From: a virus
Strand: one strand, 5' to 3'
IMG/VR virus record: IMGVR_UViG_3300042934_000619
Span: 38,443 to 102,442 of that record
Length of the DNA stretch: 64,000 nucleotides
The notes beneath the pieces were generated by a model. That model saw only the letters and a program-made list of their open reading frames with translations, was not told the DNA's origin and ran no database searches. Shown here in pieces: positions 10,164 through 64,000 of the stretch; the first letter of the stretch is position 1; every line of letters starts with the position of its first letter. The translations under genes were made by a program, and so were the position numbers.

Positions 10164-10535
10164 ATGACCGGAATCCTGGCGGTATCCGTCTTCCTCAACG
10201 CGCTCCTGATCATCGCGCTCCTGATCAAGCGCGAGTCGCGGAACTGGATGGACGGAATCAAGGAAGCGGATGTTCCGCTTCCGCAGGGGATTCATCGTCC
10301 CGCGTTCCGGCGGTTCGTCTTCGATCGAAAGGTCGACGTGACCGGCATCTCGGGTACGGGCATCCGCGTCGAGGGTGTCGTGTTCAGCGACGGATGGGGC
10401 GTGTCGCACTGGCTTGACATGCCCCCGATGAACGAGCCGAAGACCGAGGTGTGGCACAACCCCGGTGTCGCACCACTCGTCAAGATCAGCGGACACAACG
10501 GGGCCAGCGAGGTAGTCTGGCTCGACAGGCCGTGA
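10164..10535 (+). CDS. membrane-anchored hypothetical protein
   Basis: 123 residues: an N-terminal membrane anchor (residues 3-21, ILAVSVFLNALLIIALLI) followed by a soluble beta-rich domain. Ribosome binding site GAAGGAGAGAGGTA. No family recognised. Confidence 0.65.
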   Translation: MTGILAVSVFLNALLIIALLIKRESRNWMDGIKEADVPLPQGIHRPAFRRFVFDRKVDVTGISGTGIRVEGVVFSDGWGVSHWLDMPPMNEPKTEVWHNPGVAPLVKISGHNGASEVVWLDRP

Positions 10536-20540: not shown

Positions 20541-21008
20541 TTGGAAAACTTGGAAGAAGTGGAAAAAGGCGTGCTTTTCGACTCATGGTTGCACACGGTG
20601 CGCGCCCAGGAGCGGGACGGCGGGGTTGACTACCGGAACCTCGCGTGCTATCCGGACAAGCTCACGGACTACATACAGGACCACATGTCCACTGCGCTCC
20701 AGGGTCTTGAGGAGCTGTATGCCGAGCTTCCGTCCAAGGTTGCGAAGGACGATGAGCAGCGCGAGGCGTGGATCACGCAGCGCGAGAGCTTCATCATCAG
20801 GACGCGGGCTGCTCTTGATCATCTCGCTGCCGCTCTGTCCGCCGTCGGATGCACCGACGAGGAGCTGAGCGGATCCACGAAGGGGCGGGAAGAGAGCGAC
20901 GGGGCTCCTCGTACCGGTACACCGTCCTGGGTTCGCGTGGACATCGAGGGCGCCTCGCTGTCCCCCTCCGACGTCACGTGCGTCTCCGGCGACGTAATCG
21001 AAAAGTGA
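20541..21008 (+). CDS. hypothetical helical protein
   Basis: 155 residues if translation starts at the TTG at 20541. Mainly helical in the first 100 residues, then a low-complexity linker and a short beta segment. No motif recognised. The start is uncertain because no strong ribosome binding site precedes it. Confidence 0.55.
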   Translation: MENLEEVEKGVLFDSWLHTVRAQERDGGVDYRNLACYPDKLTDYIQDHMSTALQGLEELYAELPSKVAKDDEQREAWITQRESFIIRTRAALDHLAAALSAVGCTDEELSGSTKGREESDGAPRTGTPSWVRVDIEGASLSPSDVTCVSGDVIEK

Positions 21009-21079
21009 GCAGGTAGAAGGGACCCCCACACCCTTCATTCGAACTGTTCGTCGTATCATTCAGGGAGCGGTGGCCGCGT

Positions 21080-49553: not shown

Positions 49554-49841
49554 ATGACCATGACGCTCGCGGATCTGCGCAGGAAGGCTGGGCTTTCCCA
49601 GGCGCAGATGGCAAAGAAGATGGGCGTGAGCAACACGCAGGTGAGCCGCATCGAGGCCAGCTACCCGGACGTCATGTTCCCGTCACTGCGGCGGTACATG
49701 GACGCGCTCGGCACGACGATCAAGTTCGTGGGCATTGAGACGGAATGCGACTCCGACGACGTCGAGAAGGACGCGACCCGTATTTACGGAGAGACGAGGC
49801 GACAGGATCCGACTCGTGCGTTCGGCCGCAAGAGCGCCTGA
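49554..49841 (+). CDS. XRE-family HTH regulator on opposite strand
   Basis: 95 residues behind GAAGGAGACAGAA. LADLRRKAGLSQAQMAKKMGVSNTQVSRIEAS is a clear XRE helix-turn-helix; the C-terminus (MDALGTTIKFVGIE) resembles HigA-type antitoxins. It is encoded against the flow of the structural genes, between portal and a small membrane gene, so it is probably expressed on its own. No toxin gene is adjacent. Confidence 0.85.
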   Translation: MTMTLADLRRKAGLSQAQMAKKMGVSNTQVSRIEASYPDVMFPSLRRYMDALGTTIKFVGIETECDSDDVEKDATRIYGETRRQDPTRAFGRKSA

Positions 49842-52085: not shown

Positions 52086-52280
52086 ATGGAGCAGAAGGCG
52101 TCCAGCTGCACAACCGGCTGGGACTGGAAGACGGCCAGCTACACGGCCGCCAACAACACGTGTGTGGAGACGAAGGCGGACGCCCTGTCCGTCCGTGTGC
52201 GTGACACGAAGGACCGCGCCATTCCGGGGATCCGGGTGGCTCCCGCCACCTGGGCGCAGTTCATCGGGATGGTGCGCTAG
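52086..52280 (+). CDS. DUF397 protein on opposite strand
   Basis: 64 residues behind AGAAGGAGACGCAAG. TGWDWKTASYTAANNTCVETKADALSVRVRDTKDR ... WAQFIGMV matches the DUF397 pattern (W-x-x-S/A-S-Y, CVE, VRD-KD, W-x-x-F). In Streptomyces these small proteins sit beside XRE regulators of the WhiJ type and help control development and antibiotic production. Encoded against the structural genes and convergent with the gene at 52277. Confidence 0.85.
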   Translation: MEQKASSCTTGWDWKTASYTAANNTCVETKADALSVRVRDTKDRAIPGIRVAPATWAQFIGMVR

Positions 52281-55596: not shown

Positions 55597-55755
55597 ATGG
55601 CTGACGGAGACTCGACCTGGTACTGCAACAACTCCGGACATCCGCATGCAACCTATGGCGCCGCTCAGCAATGTGATCTGACGGCACACAGGCAGCGGAG
55701 GCTGGAACAAGAGCGTGCCGAGGCGGAGGCTCGTCGAAGGCGAGAGGGAAAGTGA
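55597..55755 (+). CDS. very small Cys/Arg-rich protein
   Basis: 52 residues behind GAAGGAGACAAG, ATG at 55597: MADGDSTWYCNNSGHPHAT, then QQC and a helical Arg/Glu tail. C-x(6)-H ... C suggests a small metal site. The stop overlaps the GntR start. Confidence 0.65.
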   Translation: MADGDSTWYCNNSGHPHATYGAAQQCDLTAHRQRRLEQERAEAEARRRREGK

Positions 55756-56207
55756 TGGACAGTGACCCTGGCCCCGTGCGGAAGATTCCTCGATACCAGG
55801 AAATCGCCCGGCACTTCGAGCAGGCCATCGACACCCATGATCTGATGCCCGGACAGAAGCTCCCGCCGATTCCCCGCATCGCCGAGCAGTTCGGCGTGGC
55901 CACCGAAACAGCGGCCAAGGCGGTCCGGGATCTGCGGGACAAGGGGTACGTCCAGACCAGCACGCAGGGGACGATCGTCCTGGACCGGCTACGGGTCGGG
56001 GTGTTCGGGGCGGAGGTGCTGCCGCCCCGGCATATGACCGGCTGTCGGTCCACCATCCACTGCGCCAGCTTCGGTTTCTGCCACCGGTGCTCACCCGAGC
56101 TGGCCGAGGCGAGCAGTCACGTGATGCTGGCGCTTGCGACCGTGGGGCAGGAACGTAACGGCGGGCTGTACGAGCGGGTCATGAACCTCCTGAAGGCCGA
56201 CGGGTGA
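55752..56207 (+). CDS. GntR-family transcription regulator
   Basis: 151 residues. PRYQEIARHFEQAIDTHDLMPGQKLPPIPRIAEQFGVATETAAKAVRDLRDKGYVQTSTQGTIV is a GntR winged helix. The C-terminal part is short, with CHRC. In Streptomyces plasmids GntR proteins (KorSA type) control transfer and copying. It is the last gene before the iteron region and is a good candidate to bind it. Confidence 0.85.
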   Translation: MMDSDPGPVRKIPRYQEIARHFEQAIDTHDLMPGQKLPPIPRIAEQFGVATETAAKAVRDLRDKGYVQTSTQGTIVLDRLRVGVFGAEVLPPRHMTGCRSTIHCASFGFCHRCSPELAEASSHVMLALATVGQERNGGLYERVMNLLKADG

Positions 56208-59217: not shown

Positions 59218-59233
59218 TGTTCCACGTGAAACA
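59218..59233. promoter_or_regulatory. parS-like site 1
   Basis: TGTTCCACGTGAAACA: one mismatch from the perfect palindrome of the bacterial parS site (TGTTTCACGTGAAACA), in the gap before the gene at 59295. Confidence 0.85.
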
Positions 59234-59294
59234 TCGTGGGCGTGCATTCCCGGTCTCGGCGCATCGCTGAGTGGTGACGGTCGGAGGGTGAGAT

Positions 59295-59738
59295 ATGACG
59301 GTGGCGTTGGCGACGGCGGTCCCGTATCCGGTAGTTGGGTTGCCGGGTGTGGCGCTCATGTGGGGGCCTGTGTGCCTCGATCATTGGCGCGTGACGGACC
59401 GTCCGACGGACGTGACGCGTGCGAGTGCGGAGAGGTTCGCGCACGCGATGCAGTGCACGAACGTGGACCACGGGCACGTGGACGCGTCCGGGTGGCACAA
59501 GCGGGTCGCCGGTGTGGTCGGGTGTCTGCACTGTGAGGACGGCTCGTTCGCGTCAGGGCATTACGTGTGCACGCATGGTGCGCCGTGCGATGACTGCATG
59601 GATGCCGGTGTGTCGGCGGCGGAGAACATCGCGGCGGGGTACGGCGCGAACGGTGAGGACACCGACGACGAAATGTACTACGACGACAGCTCATCCAACT
59701 ACGCATCGTGCGGATGGGACGGGCCGATCGAGTACTGA
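59295..59738 (+). CDS. hypothetical protein, Cys-rich
   Basis: 147 residues. Several Cys and His (CLHCEDGSF, CTHGAPCDDC) suggest zinc binding; the C-terminus is acidic (DTDDEMYYDDSSS). The ribosome binding site GGAGGGTGAGAT precedes it. Function unknown. Confidence 0.65.
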   Translation: MTVALATAVPYPVVGLPGVALMWGPVCLDHWRVTDRPTDVTRASAERFAHAMQCTNVDHGHVDASGWHKRVAGVVGCLHCEDGSFASGHYVCTHGAPCDDCMDAGVSAAENIAAGYGANGEDTDDEMYYDDSSSNYASCGWDGPIEY

Positions 59739-59760
59739 CGCGCGCAACGTCCGGGGTGCA

Positions 59761-59776
59761 TGTTTCACGTGGAACA
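59761..59776. promoter_or_regulatory. parS-like site 2
   Basis: TGTTTCACGTGGAACA, the exact reverse complement of site 1, between the genes at 59295 and 59831. Confidence 0.85.
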
Positions 59777-59830
59777 TGCACGCCCGGTCCTGGCGTGCGC
59801 TGGGAATGGTCAGCGAAGAGAGGGGCTGTT

Positions 59831-60091
59831 ATGGCGCGCAGCATCGACTACCCGACGGGTAACCCGAACGGGATGTCGTTCATCTGTAATCGGTGGGTGT
59901 TCACGGGGCCGGAGGGGTACCGGGTGCAGTTCGTCGATGGCGAGGGTGACGCGCGATGGGGCGTGTTCCGGTACGACGGCGCGTACACGCATCGGGCGTA
60001 CATCAAGCCGATGGCGGAGGACGACGCGCACGCGTTCGCGGCGCGGTTGTCGGGCCGTCCGGTCAACGTGGCGCAGGAGGTGACGGCATGA
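59831..60091 (+). CDS. small hypothetical protein
   Basis: 86 residues behind GAGAGGGGCTGTT. Beta-rich start (SFICNRWVFTGPEGYRVQFVDGEGDARW). Coupled to the next gene by overlap. Function unknown. Confidence 0.65.
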   Translation: MARSIDYPTGNPNGMSFICNRWVFTGPEGYRVQFVDGEGDARWGVFRYDGAYTHRAYIKPMAEDDAHAFAARLSGRPVNVAQEVTA

Positions 60092-60519
60092 TCATTGAGT
60101 ATGCGGGCCCGGCTGATCGTTCGGCCGGACCGGGGTGGATCCACAAGGCACGCGCCTGGTGGAACGTCCACACCGACGATCAGGGTGAGGTGAGGCGCGC
60201 GGTGCTCCGCGCCGTCAAGGCGGCGGTACCGGAGGACAGCACGGTCACGTTCGTGTCCTGGCACATGGACACGTCCACGCACCCGACGATCAACGCGTGG
60301 CCGAGTGTACGGGTGCTCGACGCGGAGAGTCAGCGGCTGCGCAAGGTGGTCGCCCGTGCATGCGACTTCTGTTCCAGTCCGAACCCGTGCAACTACCTGC
60401 GCATGCCGGACAAGAGCAACAAGGCGGCGTGCTTCACGTGTTTGCGTGGTGAGCAACTGGCCGCCGTGCGCTACGTGACCGTCGCATGGATCAAGGCAGA
60501 CGGCACGTTGCAGATCTGA
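60088..60519 (+). CDS. hypothetical protein with Cys pairs
   Basis: 143 residues. CDFCSSPNPCNYL ... CFTC could form a zinc ribbon in the C-terminal half. Start overlaps the previous stop. Function unknown. Confidence 0.65.
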   Translation: MIIEYAGPADRSAGPGWIHKARAWWNVHTDDQGEVRRAVLRAVKAAVPEDSTVTFVSWHMDTSTHPTINAWPSVRVLDAESQRLRKVVARACDFCSSPNPCNYLRMPDKSNKAACFTCLRGEQLAAVRYVTVAWIKADGTLQI

Positions 60520-60540
60520 CCGTGCGGGTTCGGGGCGCAG

Positions 60541-60556
60541 TGTTCCACGTGAAACA
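60541..60556. promoter_or_regulatory. parS-like site 3
   Basis: TGTTCCACGTGAAACA, identical to site 1, in the gap before the gene at 60604. Confidence 0.85.
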
Positions 60557-60603
60557 TCGTGCGAGCGCTGCGCCCAGTGTCCACACGGAAGGTGACAATC
60601 GAC

Positions 60604-60819
60604 ATGACGGAATTGAAGATCGAGCGCGTGCGCAGCGTGCTGTGGGTGACGGTGATATGCCCCGTGAGCAAAAGCAAGGGCGCGTCGGCGTCGGCGGACA
60701 AGGCGGCCCGTAAGTGGGTGCAGGAGAACAAGGGGTATCGGCAGGCGTTCCGGCGGTCGTCCAGTCAGACGTCCGGTGCGAAGGGGTTCCACTACCGGGC
60801 GGCGTTCGCCTTGCACTGA
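60604..60819 (+). CDS. small basic protein
   Basis: 71 residues, basic C-terminus (KWVQENKGYRQAFRRSSSQ). Ribosome binding site GGAAGGTGACAATCGAC. Function unknown. Confidence 0.6.
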   Translation: MTELKIERVRSVLWVTVICPVSKSKGASASADKAARKWVQENKGYRQAFRRSSSQTSGAKGFHYRAAFALH

Positions 60820-60845
60820 CCTGGTCGTGCGGGTCGTGGGCTCAA

Positions 60846-60861
60846 TGTTTCACGTGGAACA
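60846..60861. promoter_or_regulatory. parS-like site 4
   Basis: TGTTTCACGTGGAACA, identical to site 2, before the gene at 60900. Confidence 0.85.
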
Positions 60862-60899
60862 TTGGGTCCCCTGTCCGCATGGATGAGAGGAGAATGATC

Positions 60900-61370
60900 A
60901 TGTTCACGATCCACAAGCGTCCGCAAACGCGTATCGGCACCGATGGCGTGGTGCGCGAGGTACCGGGTGAGACGCGCACGATCACCACGTCGATGGGGCT
61001 GCTGAGGTTCGCGCTGCGGGAGCGGCTGTTCACCCACCGCACCGGCGGCCGTCCGTACCCGGCCCGGCCGGACAATGTGCACTTGGGGCGTGAGGGTGCA
61101 CCGACGTACGGGCTGTTCGACCCGCTCAAGCGGTGGGAAGTGACGTACGACCACGTTGAAGCGATGCGCCGTGCGCAGCGCGCGTACAACGAGCGCATGC
61201 ACTACCGGCGGGAGGTCGCGCCGATGTGGCGTCCGGACACGGAGTACGCGGGCAACGAGTCGGGTGTGGTGCACTACGCGGACAACTCGACCGTCCAGTA
61301 CGAGATCGACAAGGATGGTAACCGGCGTCACCGGACGATCATCGCGCCGGGTGGGGACGCCTGTTTCTAG
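60900..61370 (+). CDS. hypothetical protein
   Basis: 156 residues. Start ATG at 60900 or 60894; GAGAGGAGA fits the former. Rich in Arg and Tyr with no motif recognised. Confidence 0.65.
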   Translation: MFTIHKRPQTRIGTDGVVREVPGETRTITTSMGLLRFALRERLFTHRTGGRPYPARPDNVHLGREGAPTYGLFDPLKRWEVTYDHVEAMRRAQRAYNERMHYRREVAPMWRPDTEYAGNESGVVHYADNSTVQYEIDKDGNRRHRTIIAPGGDACF

Positions 61371-61383
61371 GGAGGGATAACCC

Positions 61384-61797
61384 GTGTTCGGGTACCGCAT
61401 GTGCACGGCGGAGGATGAGCAGTACGACCTACGACAGCTGTTCGCCTCCGCCATGGACCACCGCGCACCGGTGCGCGTGTCGTACTTCAAGCAACTGAAG
61501 CGGCCGGACCGGGCGATCGTTCCGGGTCAGTACGTGAAGGTGACGCGCGTGGTCGAACCGTTCGATTTCGACGTGGCGAAGATCGGCGCACGCATCGTGC
61601 GCGTGGTGGACCGCACCCCTGATGGGGTGTGGGGTCCCGCGTACCGGGCGATCCGGCTGGACCGGGTCGCGTTCAGCCGCAGCACGGGCAAGCCGTTGGC
61701 TGTCCGGCTGCTGTCGCAGGGGTTCATCTGTCCGACGCTGTTGGACGGTAAGCCGCTGCATTCGACAAAGCGTGTGCTTACCGCACGCGCGGCGTGA
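61384..61797 (+). CDS. hypothetical protein
   Basis: 137 residues from a GTG behind GGAGGGATAACCC. Alpha/beta, basic. No family recognised. Confidence 0.65.
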   Translation: MFGYRMCTAEDEQYDLRQLFASAMDHRAPVRVSYFKQLKRPDRAIVPGQYVKVTRVVEPFDFDVAKIGARIVRVVDRTPDGVWGPAYRAIRLDRVAFSRSTGKPLAVRLLSQGFICPTLLDGKPLHSTKRVLTARAA

Positions 61798-61826
61798 CAA
61801 ACCGAAGGTGACAGGAGACAGCAGGA

Positions 61827-62246
61827 ATGATGAACCACAAGGCGCGCCGTGCGCGCACGGGTCTGGCGTTCGGCACGGTCACCGGCCTGTTCCTGGGGCT
61901 GGCAGCGCTGTTCAGCGCGTCCGCCACGGAGGGGGCCGCGTCCACCGTGTCGAAGGTGAGCATCTGCGAGACCGGGTTCCCGAGCGACCCGGACTACGCG
62001 GCCGAGTGCATGAGGGACGGCACGAGGGAGGACGCTGCCGTCCTGTGGTACTTCGGCTACTCCGACGCGCAGCGCACGGCCGACTGCCGTACGGGGCGAC
62101 GCACGGGCGACCTGATCGGTGTGGTGCGTGAGACGCGCGGCGACGTGATCACGGACAACTTCCGCAACGGTGAGCAGATGATCCGCTGGACGGCGCGCAT
62201 GGGTGTGGCCGACTGCGAATCGCTCGGTTTCGGCGACGTCCGCTGA
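61827..62246 (+). CDS. putative secreted protein
   Basis: 139 residues. A basic start (NHKARRARTG), a hydrophobic stretch (LAFGTVTGLFLGLAALFSASA) and an A-x-A type site near residue 34 form a signal peptide. The mature part has four Cys (ICETG, ECMRD, DCRTG, DCESL), which could make two disulfides. Probably exported. Confidence 0.7.
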   Translation: MMNHKARRARTGLAFGTVTGLFLGLAALFSASATEGAASTVSKVSICETGFPSDPDYAAECMRDGTREDAAVLWYFGYSDAQRTADCRTGRRTGDLIGVVRETRGDVITDNFRNGEQMIRWTARMGVADCESLGFGDVR

Positions 62247-62264
62247 CAACCAGGAAGGGGAACG

Positions 62265-62528
62265 ATGATGTCCCGACGCAAGAGCCTGCCCACCCTGCAC
62301 GGGCGGGACGACGGCGTGATCATGTTCCGATCACGCCTGCTCGTCGACGAGAAGGACGGTGCCGACCTGTGCACGGCACTCGACCGCATGGTGCGCAGTC
62401 ATCCGCGCATCGGTGACGCGGTGATCCGCATGGGCGGGTGCGGTGGTGCGAGCGCGTATGTCAACGCGCTCGATTCGCTGCGCACGTACGAGAGCACCGG
62501 CGTGGCGATCGTCCCGCTGCGTCCGTAG
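62265..62528 (+). CDS. small hypothetical protein
   Basis: 87 residues behind AAGGGGAACG. Alpha/beta sequence with two consecutive possible ATG starts. Function unknown. Confidence 0.6.
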   Translation: MMSRRKSLPTLHGRDDGVIMFRSRLLVDEKDGADLCTALDRMVRSHPRIGDAVIRMGGCGGASAYVNALDSLRTYESTGVAIVPLRP

Positions 62529-62570
62529 TACCTGAGCGTCCCGCTTCGGGGCGTCTCCACGGTCACGTAT

Positions 62571-62586
62571 GTTTCACGTGGAACCG
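62571..62586. promoter_or_regulatory. parS-like site 5 (imperfect)
   Basis: TGTTTCACGTGGAACC: as sites 2 and 4 but with the last base changed. Confidence 0.7.
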
Positions 62587-62623
62587 TGGGGGCGTCCCCG
62601 TGGCACGGACGATAGGTGTATCT

Positions 62624-62821
62624 GTGATCAAGTCGAGTCGCATCCCCAAGGGGTGGGAGTTCGTGTCCATAGATCACGGATGGGAGGCGGCATGGTCAAC
62701 CGCGATGCGCTTCAAGCACGAGCGCGAGAGGCTGCGGCCCGACTTGTTCGTCCGCGTCAAGGTGGTCCCGTCGGGGAGCACCAACGTGTGGTGGATCTTG
62801 AAGAAGGAGGAGAGCAGATGA
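62624..62821 (+). CDS. small basic protein
   Basis: About 65 residues from a GTG at 62624 (an in-frame GTG at 62600 is possible). IKSSRIPKGWEFVSIDHGWEAAWSTAMRFKHERERLRPD. Overlaps the next gene by four bases. Confidence 0.5.
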   Translation: MIKSSRIPKGWEFVSIDHGWEAAWSTAMRFKHERERLRPDLFVRVKVVPSGSTNVWWILKKEESR

Positions 62822-63072
62822 GCGCCGAGGTGAGCCGCGTACTGTCCATCGACCCCGATGCGCAGCATCTGGAATTCCGCGCCAACGCTTGCCGGGAGTG
62901 CAACGAGTACAGTCCGCTGACCACGATCGACAACCCCTCCTGGAGTGTGTGGTTCGACGTGCACTCGCGCGAGACCGGGCACCAGAAGTTCTATCAGCTC
63001 AAGGTCGAGCGCAGCATGGGCGAGATCCACACCATGCCGAAGCCGAAGCGCCGGATGCTCGGCCAGCGCTGA
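62818..63072 (+). CDS. hypothetical protein with zinc motif
   Basis: 84 residues behind GGAGGAGAGCAG. CRECNEYS with later His residues; DVHSRETGHQKFYQLKVERS resembles small Streptomyces proteins of unknown function. The gene is followed by the perfect parS site. Confidence 0.65.
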   Translation: MSAEVSRVLSIDPDAQHLEFRANACRECNEYSPLTTIDNPSWSVWFDVHSRETGHQKFYQLKVERSMGEIHTMPKPKRRMLGQR

Positions 63073-63090
63073 GAAACAAGCACGCGTGAT

Positions 63091-63106
63091 TGTTTCACGT
63101 GAAACA
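63091..63106. promoter_or_regulatory. parS site 6 (perfect consensus)
   Basis: TGTTTCACGTGAAACA: the full 16-bp palindrome, identical to the consensus parS of Bacillus and containing the 14-bp GTTTCACGTGAAAC of Streptomyces. Confidence 0.92.
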
Positions 63107-63119
63107 TGGAAGGCAGGAC

Positions 63120-63329
63120 ATGGGAGTCACCGAAGAACTGAAGGCGCAGCTCGACACGCTTGAGCTGGTGTACGCCGACCTGACCGACGGGCGTGCGCTG
63201 GTCGTGGCGCAGGAAGAGGGCCGGTACGTCTTCGCCGACGGCGCGACCGCCCGTAACCTGCCGGACGCCGTGGACCAGGGACGCGCACTCGTGCGGTTCG
63301 CGATCAACCAGATGCGCCAGTCGGCGTGA
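63120..63329 (+). CDS. small hypothetical protein
   Basis: 69 residues, ATG at 63120 behind GAAGGCAGGAC. Helical start (GVTEELKAQLDTLELVYADL) and a beta part. Function unknown. Confidence 0.6.
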   Translation: MGVTEELKAQLDTLELVYADLTDGRALVVAQEEGRYVFADGATARNLPDAVDQGRALVRFAINQMRQSA

Positions 63330-63330
63330 A

Positions 63331-63346
63331 TGTTCCACGTGAAACA
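63331..63346. promoter_or_regulatory. parS-like site 7
   Basis: TGTTCCACGTGAAACA, starting two bases after the stop of the gene at 63120. Confidence 0.85.
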
Positions 63347-63370
63347 TCGACAGCCCAGGAAGGCGACAAC

Positions 63371-63871
63371 ATGACCGACACCCTCACCGTGGAGATCCCG
63401 CTCGAAGTGCGGGACAACTCCGAGACCGTGACCGACTACGCGTTCATGCGGCACCGCTCCCCGGGCCGGGGCGTGGTCACGGTGGTCGACCGAGACCGCT
63501 CGATCGACCTCTGTACCGCACTCCCCTCCCTCCAGTACACGCACCACCAGTGGCACGACACGAACCAGCGGAACGGCCAGCGTTGCCGCTTCGACATGAT
63601 CGTCAGCCACACCGGGCACGTGGTGTACCTGTTCCACACGGAACTGTGGACGCGTGTGGCCTGCCACATGGGCGACGACTGCTACTACTACGCCGCCTAC
63701 TACGTGCGCGAGGACGACCCGCGCGAGGAGATCGAGGACCAGCGTCCGTTCTGCGACGAGCACACCGCCGAGATCATCGGTGCGCCGCTCGTGCTCACGC
63801 AGGACAGCTACATTCGCGACGACGGCATCGCGGTCCGCCTGTCCGAGCGTCTGCTCGTCGGGCAGCACTGA
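63371..63871 (+). CDS. hypothetical protein
   Basis: 166 residues behind AGGAAGGCGACAAC. DRSIDLCTALPSLQYTHHQW, CHMGDDCYYYAAYYV and FCDEHTAE give several Cys and His that may bind metal. Ends with a terminator. Function unknown. Confidence 0.65.
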   Translation: MTDTLTVEIPLEVRDNSETVTDYAFMRHRSPGRGVVTVVDRDRSIDLCTALPSLQYTHHQWHDTNQRNGQRCRFDMIVSHTGHVVYLFHTELWTRVACHMGDDCYYYAAYYVREDDPREEIEDQRPFCDEHTAEIIGAPLVLTQDSYIRDDGIAVRLSERLLVGQH

Positions 63872-63891
63872 CCCCGTCACCTCAAGCCGAG

Positions 63892-63919
63892 CACCCCGCC
63901 ACCTCTCCCCGGCGGGGTG
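63892..63919 (+). terminator. terminator hairpin
   Basis: A 9-bp perfect stem, CACCCCGCC/GGCGGGGTG, with a 10-nt loop, followed by TTCCC. Confidence 0.75.
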
Positions 63920-63941
63920 TTCCCTTGACCTGACGGCGCAA

Positions 63942-63957
63942 TGTTCCACGTGAAACA
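63942..63957. promoter_or_regulatory. parS-like site 8
   Basis: TGTTCCACGTGAAACA, just before the last, truncated gene. Confidence 0.85.
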
Positions 63958-63975
63958 TCGACGAAAGGACACCGC

Positions 63976-64000
63976 ATGCCGGTGAAGGAATGGATCATCG
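63976..64000 (+). CDS. start of a gene cut by the window edge
   Basis: ATG at 63976 behind GAAAGGACACCGC; only MPVKEWII is visible. Nothing can be said of its function. Confidence 0.5.

Follow-up and report, generated by a model that had tools for sequence, protein, structure and literature searches.

The stretch of DNA analysed here is a 64,000-nucleotide window covering positions 38443-102442 of the 102,442-bp virus record IMGVR_UViG_3300042934_000619. It holds part of an array of sites that match the chromosomal partition site parS. The preferred reading, to which a probability of about 0.6 is given, is that this array is a phage-borne chromosomal centromere and that host ParB makes the phage genome a cargo of the host's ParA-ParB-parS (ParABS) system. 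Host ParB most likely loads on the arrays of the window phage and its relatives, as judged from their sequences; ParA would then move the phage genome, and the selected benefit would be its carriage along hyphae and into spores. Loading of host ParB had been proposed in a sequence-only reading of the window. It now appears the best-supported reading, on the identity of the sites to parS, their host-like variation and flanks, the lack of a phage ParB, and a chromosomal-type ParA within the arrays of relatives.

The parS-like array of the window phage

The first 127 bases of the record are identical to its last 127, giving a circle of 102,315 bp. As 127 suggests an assembler word length, this overlap indicates circularity or circular permutation and not a true terminal repeat. 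A scan of the window allowing up to 3 mismatches returned 10 matches where 0.52 were expected, and none of the shuffles reached 10. On the whole phage, 14 exact copies of the 14-mer GTTYCACGTGRAAC are present in a single array of 6,903 bp, and none in the remaining 95 kb. Chance alone would give 0.0009 (base composition) to 0.0015 (third-order Markov) exact 14-mers in the whole genome, and a chance origin of the sites was therefore rejected.

On the circle (contig coordinates) the sites are found at 97660, 98203, 98983, 99288, 101012, 101533, 101773, 69, 327, 851, 925, 1391, 1699 and 2234; position 69, inside the end overlap, is the same site as window position 63942. The array thus crosses the contig join, with six further sites beyond it, and the 'right-end' location first ascribed to it merely reflects the point at which the circular record was opened. 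All eight sites reported earlier for the window are present and of the types described (four TGTTCCACGTGAAACA, two reverse complements, one palindrome and one with a changed last base, TGTTTCACGTGGAACC), with one coordinate corrected from 62571 to 62570. The sites and the end overlap in the window are as follows.

59218..59233, + strand: parS-like site TGTTCCACGTGAAACA, by motif scan
59761..59776, - strand: parS-like site in reverse form, reading TGTTTCACGTGGAACA on the + strand, by motif scan
60541..60556, + strand: parS-like site TGTTCCACGTGAAACA, by motif scan
60846..60861, - strand: parS-like site in reverse form, by motif scan
62570..62585, - strand: parS-like site in reverse form, last base altered (TGTTTCACGTGGAACC), 14-bp core intact
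63091..63106, no strand: parS-like site, perfect palindrome TGTTTCACGTGAAACA, start codon ~15 nt on
63331..63346, + strand: parS-like site TGTTCCACGTGAAACA, start codon ~26 nt on
63942..63957, + strand: parS-like site TGTTCCACGTGAAACA, within the 127-bp end overlap
63874..64000, no strand: 127-bp record end identical to the record start, from circular assembly

All 14 sites of the window phage lie outside the genes called on it with an in-house codon-usage script. Random placement in the arc would give this result with a probability of ~1e-10; since only 19% of the arc is non-coding, the arrangement is not due to chance.

Arrays in related phages and the likely host

A search of IMG/VR with the portal protein returned 17 contigs, of which the large array-bearing ones are G011 (104,344 bp, 32 sites) and G015 (111,555 bp, 20 sites, here too with a 127-bp end overlap). 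A third relative, G018 (116,662 bp, 24 sites), was recovered by motif search. The window phage and its relatives are all known as metagenome contigs only. Between each relative and the window phage there are 56-64 reciprocal best hits, with a mean identity of ~51%, and protein identity of genes shared among the four phage genomes is only ~50-57%. Orthologous genes place the array of the window phage opposite the latter half of the arrays in the relatives. No near DNA relative of the window phage was present in the phage collection.

Among isolated phages the nearest portal is that of Streptomyces phage Dagobah (49.5% identity), and at 48-58% identity portal relatives occur in genomes of Streptomyces, Kitasatospora, Actinacidiphila, Thermoactinospora and Catellatospora. 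This portal homology points to a host that is very probably a streptomycete or a close relative. Portal-related prophages in streptomycete genomes have no sites within 10 kb. Dagobah itself has no parS-like site and carries an annotated SsgA-family sporulation regulator at 20593-21057.

Agreement of the phage sites with chromosomal parS

The form TGTTCCACGTGAAACA is the optimal Bacillus subtilis parS (PMC8299390) and is also the parS located within B. subtilis parB (PMC4333373). The window phage has 14 exact sites with a core identical to the biochemically proven one. S. coelicolor has 24 parS sites and S. venezuelae 16, and peaks of ParB chromatin immunoprecipitation (ChIP) lie at parS (PMC4852455). 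Exact sites number 10-50 in each of eight streptomycete-family genomes. In five streptomycete chromosomes (218 kb), 75 exact sites and no intermediates with 1-2 mismatches were found, and the sites vary at the T/C (A/G) position only. The phages follow a similar pattern: outside the T/C position, 435 kb of phage sequence contain two sites with one mismatch (both in G018) and few with two. In all four phages the flanks lengthen the palindrome to CGAT-core-ATCG. In the hosts the flanking bases favour A, then T or G, then C and G; Actinacidiphila and S. niveus have ATCG there, like the phages. By these comparisons, the window phage and its relatives obey the rules of chromosomal parS.

This agreement bears on the possibility that the sites are operators of a phage-encoded repressor and resemble parS by convergence. 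The window phage does encode helix-turn-helix (HTH) proteins, including one of XRE type (49554-49838) and one of GntR type (55755-56204). Within the range examined, no candidate was found that the four genomes share and that is placed with the array in each; the GntR protein has no homologue in the relatives, and the sites match the host's own extended consensus. Such a repressor is accordingly very improbable. The XRE-type protein, which stands alone, and a DUF397 protein (52086-52277; + strand) are found on the opposite strand around the terminase and portal. Pairs of HTH and DUF397 proteins are typical of streptomycete developmental regulators of the WhiJ type.

A chromosomal-type ParA in the relatives and no detectable phage ParB

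Neither the window phage nor any of the three relatives gave a match to ParB_N, and none gave a match to HTH_ParB above the cut-off. G018 has a weak PF02195 match (12 bits, at 20761), but the start of the protein concerned resembles a VWA-type protein, and a phage-encoded ParB was rejected. ParA is absent from the window phage. It is present in all three relatives (PF13614, E-value ~1e-62; PHROG ParA-like partition protein): G011 and G015 have the gene within the array, and G018 has it at the array's edge. Identity of the G011 protein is 64-66% to the ParA encoded in the chromosomal parA-parB operon of the host and 42-44% to a second host ParA; the host ParA found in parS clusters is followed by a ParB with an LGRGLGALI motif. 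In a tree, the three phage ParAs group with chromosomal ParA (100/100), outside the sampled streptomycete crown, and the phage rows do not resolve among themselves. Other ParA-bearing viral contigs show at most 45% identity (short segments included), with no sites in the fetched flanks.

As the relatives combine parS sites with a chromosomal-type ParA and have no ParB, host ParB would be the most plausible partner. The arrays work like a partition centromere but do not make up a complete ParABS system: their own ParB is absent and the window phage also lacks ParA.

The sequence-only reading had left the choice open among borrowed segregation, positioning near the chromosome origin, titration of ParB and silencing by ParB spreading. 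The ParA of the relatives favours borrowed segregation over silencing or titration. In the latter case the phage copies would act as a sponge for host ParB, at the cost of host segregation and origin positioning. In favour of this, each phage genome has 14-32 sites, compared with 10-50 on a host chromosome and with 16-24 in the model species (PMC4852455). Against it, the relatives also carry a ParA. Moreover, ParB is non-essential in Streptomyces, its deletion leading to anucleate spores (PMC4852455), so titration would bring little. Titration is hence considered quite improbable.

Orientation of the sites and their association with start codons

Across the four phage genomes there are 90 exact 14-mers. 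Read along the direction of the adjacent genes, 84 of them are GTTCCACGTGAAAC; three, all from the window phage, have the reverse form and three are palindromes. Asymmetric sites are thus in sense orientation in 84 of 87 cases, a bias that is weaker in the window phage (three reverse forms and two palindromes among 14). A Shine-Dalgarno sequence and a start codon follow 72 of the 90 sites, at a median of 19 nt, compared to 21% for random positions. The earlier statement that the sites lie in gaps between genes is valid for all 14 sites of the window phage; of the 76 sites in the relatives, however, 33 overlap a predicted frame, often at the end of the upstream gene, and most of these still adjoin the next start. 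The general rule is therefore a position just upstream of a start codon. Where sites of the relatives are in frame at the ends of upstream genes they read NVPRET or DVPRET. In three host parA genes the in-frame parS reads DVSRET or similar; translated in that frame, the phage sites yield NVPRET or DVPRET.

Among reciprocal orthologue pairs, a site is present on both sides in 24, on one side in 36 and on neither in 388 (odds ratio 29; the pairs are not independent). Gene order around the sites varies among the relatives and the site remains with its gene. Beyond +19 the information content after the sites is near zero, and no conserved promoter element was found there. In IMG/VR, patterns of a site with Shine-Dalgarno sequence and start occur singly per contig and in both orientations (64 and 56 stretches). 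Repeated use within one contig was seen there only in the three relatives, and a general viral habit of start-associated sites was rejected.

RNA folding was considered for the one-way orientation. Mean hairpin energies were -2.2 kcal/mol for the sense form, -6.3 for the palindrome, -5.8 for the reverse form and -8.7 for the G-C palindrome. The host pattern allows four core variants, of which the sense form is one; its RNA contains a C-A mismatch. The idea that an RNA hairpin is what functions was rejected, as the dominant sense form is the worst folder. The simplest explanation of the orientation would be that the sites are transcribed beside ribosome-binding sites, where the sense form is the weakest mRNA hairpin of the four variants: selection for ParB binding in DNA, together with pressure against hairpins just ahead of the ribosome-binding site, would yield it. 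The two palindromes of the window phage near starts do not fit hairpin avoidance. Alternatively, site-gene cassettes may have been copied in direct orientation.

The start association also suggests a ParB-controlled regulon, in which host ParB, bound at the start-associated sites and spreading from them, would repress 14-32 small genes. The phage would then read the developmental state of the host and defer lytic growth, possibly with segregation into spores in addition; the premise is that ParB complexes form strongly in sporogenic hyphae. The 72 sites preceding a Shine-Dalgarno sequence and start, the persistence of a site with its gene across orthologues, and the frame-overlapping sites of the relatives that mostly still adjoin the next start are all in keeping with this. 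Pseudomonas ParB is described as repressing parS-adjacent promoters (PMC5521831), and an account of phi29 describes coupling of Spo0A-mediated arrest to Spo0J-mediated spore entrapment (PMC9437464). Against this, the sites are not followed by a conserved promoter element, those internal to operons are poorly suited to repressing initiation, and Streptomyces chromosomal parS lie inside genes (as in the parA frame with DVSRET) without a start rule. A ParB-controlled regulon is considered doubtful.

The sites could also belong primarily to gene cassettes, as do the start-associated sequences (SAS) of cluster K mycobacteriophages. They would then be read by a phage or host factor other than ParB, or serve as joints for recombination between short repeats, with the identity to parS incidental or ancestral. 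Like SAS, they are asymmetric, in a single orientation and directly upstream of starts (PMC3203893); the differing gene order, with the site staying with its gene, and the Sak4-like annealing protein encoded by the phage also agree with such a role. An unrelated SAS would match parS by chance with a probability of only ~1e-8, the permitted variation and flanks agree with host parS, and the ParA within the array would be left without a reason. These considerations make a cassette or recombination element improbable.

Three points weigh against the centromere reading. The host assignment has portal homology as its single source. The window phage has no ParA, integrase or resolvase, so that a plasmid-like prophage state is only a possibility for it. 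Finally, 14-32 copies and a single orientation tied to starts exceed the needs of a partition site, which suggests an added regulatory or recombinational role.

Small genes between the sites and other genes of the phage

The window part of the array contains the following small open reading frames (ORFs).

59448..59738, + strand: ORF of 96 amino acids, no Pfam match
59831..60091, + strand: ORF of 86 amino acids, no Pfam match
60088..60519, + strand: ORF of 143 amino acids, G011 homologue at 79%
60604..60819, + strand: ORF of 71 amino acids
60894..61370, + strand: ORF of 158 amino acids, G018 homologue at 51%
61384..61797, + strand: ORF of 137 amino acids
61827..62246, + strand: ORF of 139 amino acids
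62265..62528, + strand: ORF of 87 amino acids
62624..62821, + strand: ORF of 65 amino acids
62818..63072, + strand: ORF of 84 amino acids, sub-threshold DUF7848 match
63120..63329, + strand: ORF of 69 amino acids, G018 homologue likewise with a site upstream
63371..63871, + strand: ORF of 166 amino acids, G011 homologue at 47%

Elsewhere the window phage encodes a DNA polymerase I, helicases, a primase/polymerase, an exonuclease, the Sak4-like annealing protein and a thymidylate synthase, along with an endolysin, portal, terminase, capsid and ClpP-type protease. Integrase or resolvase genes were not found in it; a tyrosine recombinase is present in all three relatives. Pfam matches of its smaller proteins are given here from 25 of 35 families. 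Matches on the whole phage include MazF-like toxin, TerD, Tad2-like, restriction-alleviation Lar and RlaP nucleotidyltransferase families.

parS-like sites in other viruses

Unrelated viral contigs, most of them fragments, carry 4-7 parS-like sites without a ParB or ParA domain; the use of host parS by viruses may therefore have arisen several times. Site-bearing contigs include one of 169 kb (GC content 0.36; loci L345 and L364), one of 96 kb (L287), and those of L147 and L360. In L360 four sites stand in near-tandem units of ~36 bp. Several of the sites in L147 and L287 are located ahead of start codons. Two IMG/VR loci (L144 and L185, GC content 0.45) have five sites GTTCCACGTGGAAC, mostly with a shared TGCTACG-(A/C)T-(A/G)T shortly after. 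This element resembles a -10 promoter box, as though parS occupied the -35 position. In GenBank phages the parS probe detected scattered sites, mostly few per record among the matches listed.

Proposed mechanism

ParB is a CTP-dependent DNA clamp. In the centromere reading, host ParB would nucleate at the 14 parS sites and spread across the array region of the phage genome, forming a partition complex. This complex would be moved and positioned by ParA, that of the host in the case of the window phage, and that of the host and/or the phage's own chromosomal-type ParA in the relatives. Phage genomes would in this way spread along the multigenomic hyphae and then enter spores. Streptomyces depends on ParA and ParB to spread its chromosomes along sporogenic hyphae and into prespores, and loss of these proteins results in anucleate spores (PMC4852455).

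A wider proposal, rather doubtful at present, is that in this clade of streptomycete phages the host centromere has become the start element of a regulon and that host ParB serves both as a segregation handle and as a switch on the 14-32 small genes, the phage being kept quiet and sorted into spores when a sporulating host raises its ParB complexes.

If the centromere reading is true, two of the three parts of a partition system (parS, and ParA in the relatives) are retained by these phages and ParB is supplied by the host, and a viral genome could be inherited without integration and without a centromere protein of its own. The single well-known case, phi29 in Bacillus endospores, would be extended to actinobacterial exospores. 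No report of parS arrays in Streptomyces phages was found in the literature searched, mostly open papers. Streptomyces allows a direct test, as ParB ChIP with sequencing and imaging are in routine use there and strains deleted for parA or parB are viable.

Comparison with known systems

Compared with the Streptomyces ParABS system, the parS core is identical and the permitted variant and flank preference are alike. The phages differ in having no parB, in placing their sites in sense direction before small genes, and in the dominance of the asymmetric form, where the palindrome prevails in most sampled hosts.

In phage-plasmids with ParABS systems (P1 and extrachromosomal mycobacteriophages), ParA and centromere sites are likewise carried on a circular phage genome, and the relatives described here have a tyrosine recombinase. 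Those phages encode their own ParB and a private centromere, whereas here ParB must be that of the host.

The SAS of cluster K phages (PMC3203893) are also short asymmetric repeats, in one orientation, directly upstream of starts and kept with gene families. Their consensus, GGGATAGGAGCCC, includes the ribosome-binding site and is unrelated to parS, and they have no known binder and no ParA.

For phi29, PMC9437464, citing Meijer et al. 2005, states that host Spo0J carries the phage DNA into the endospore. Its genome has four exact sites GTTTCACGTGGAAC (at 10446, 15904, 17244 and 18761), all in the same asymmetric form, and one near match, all on one strand. Like the phages described here, phi29 thus carries several perfect host parS sites and no known ParB of its own. 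The phi29 sites are few, scattered, not associated with starts and without ParA, whereas the present phages, actinobacterial and of ~100 kb, have dense arrays of 14-32 sites and, in three of four, a chromosomal-type ParA.

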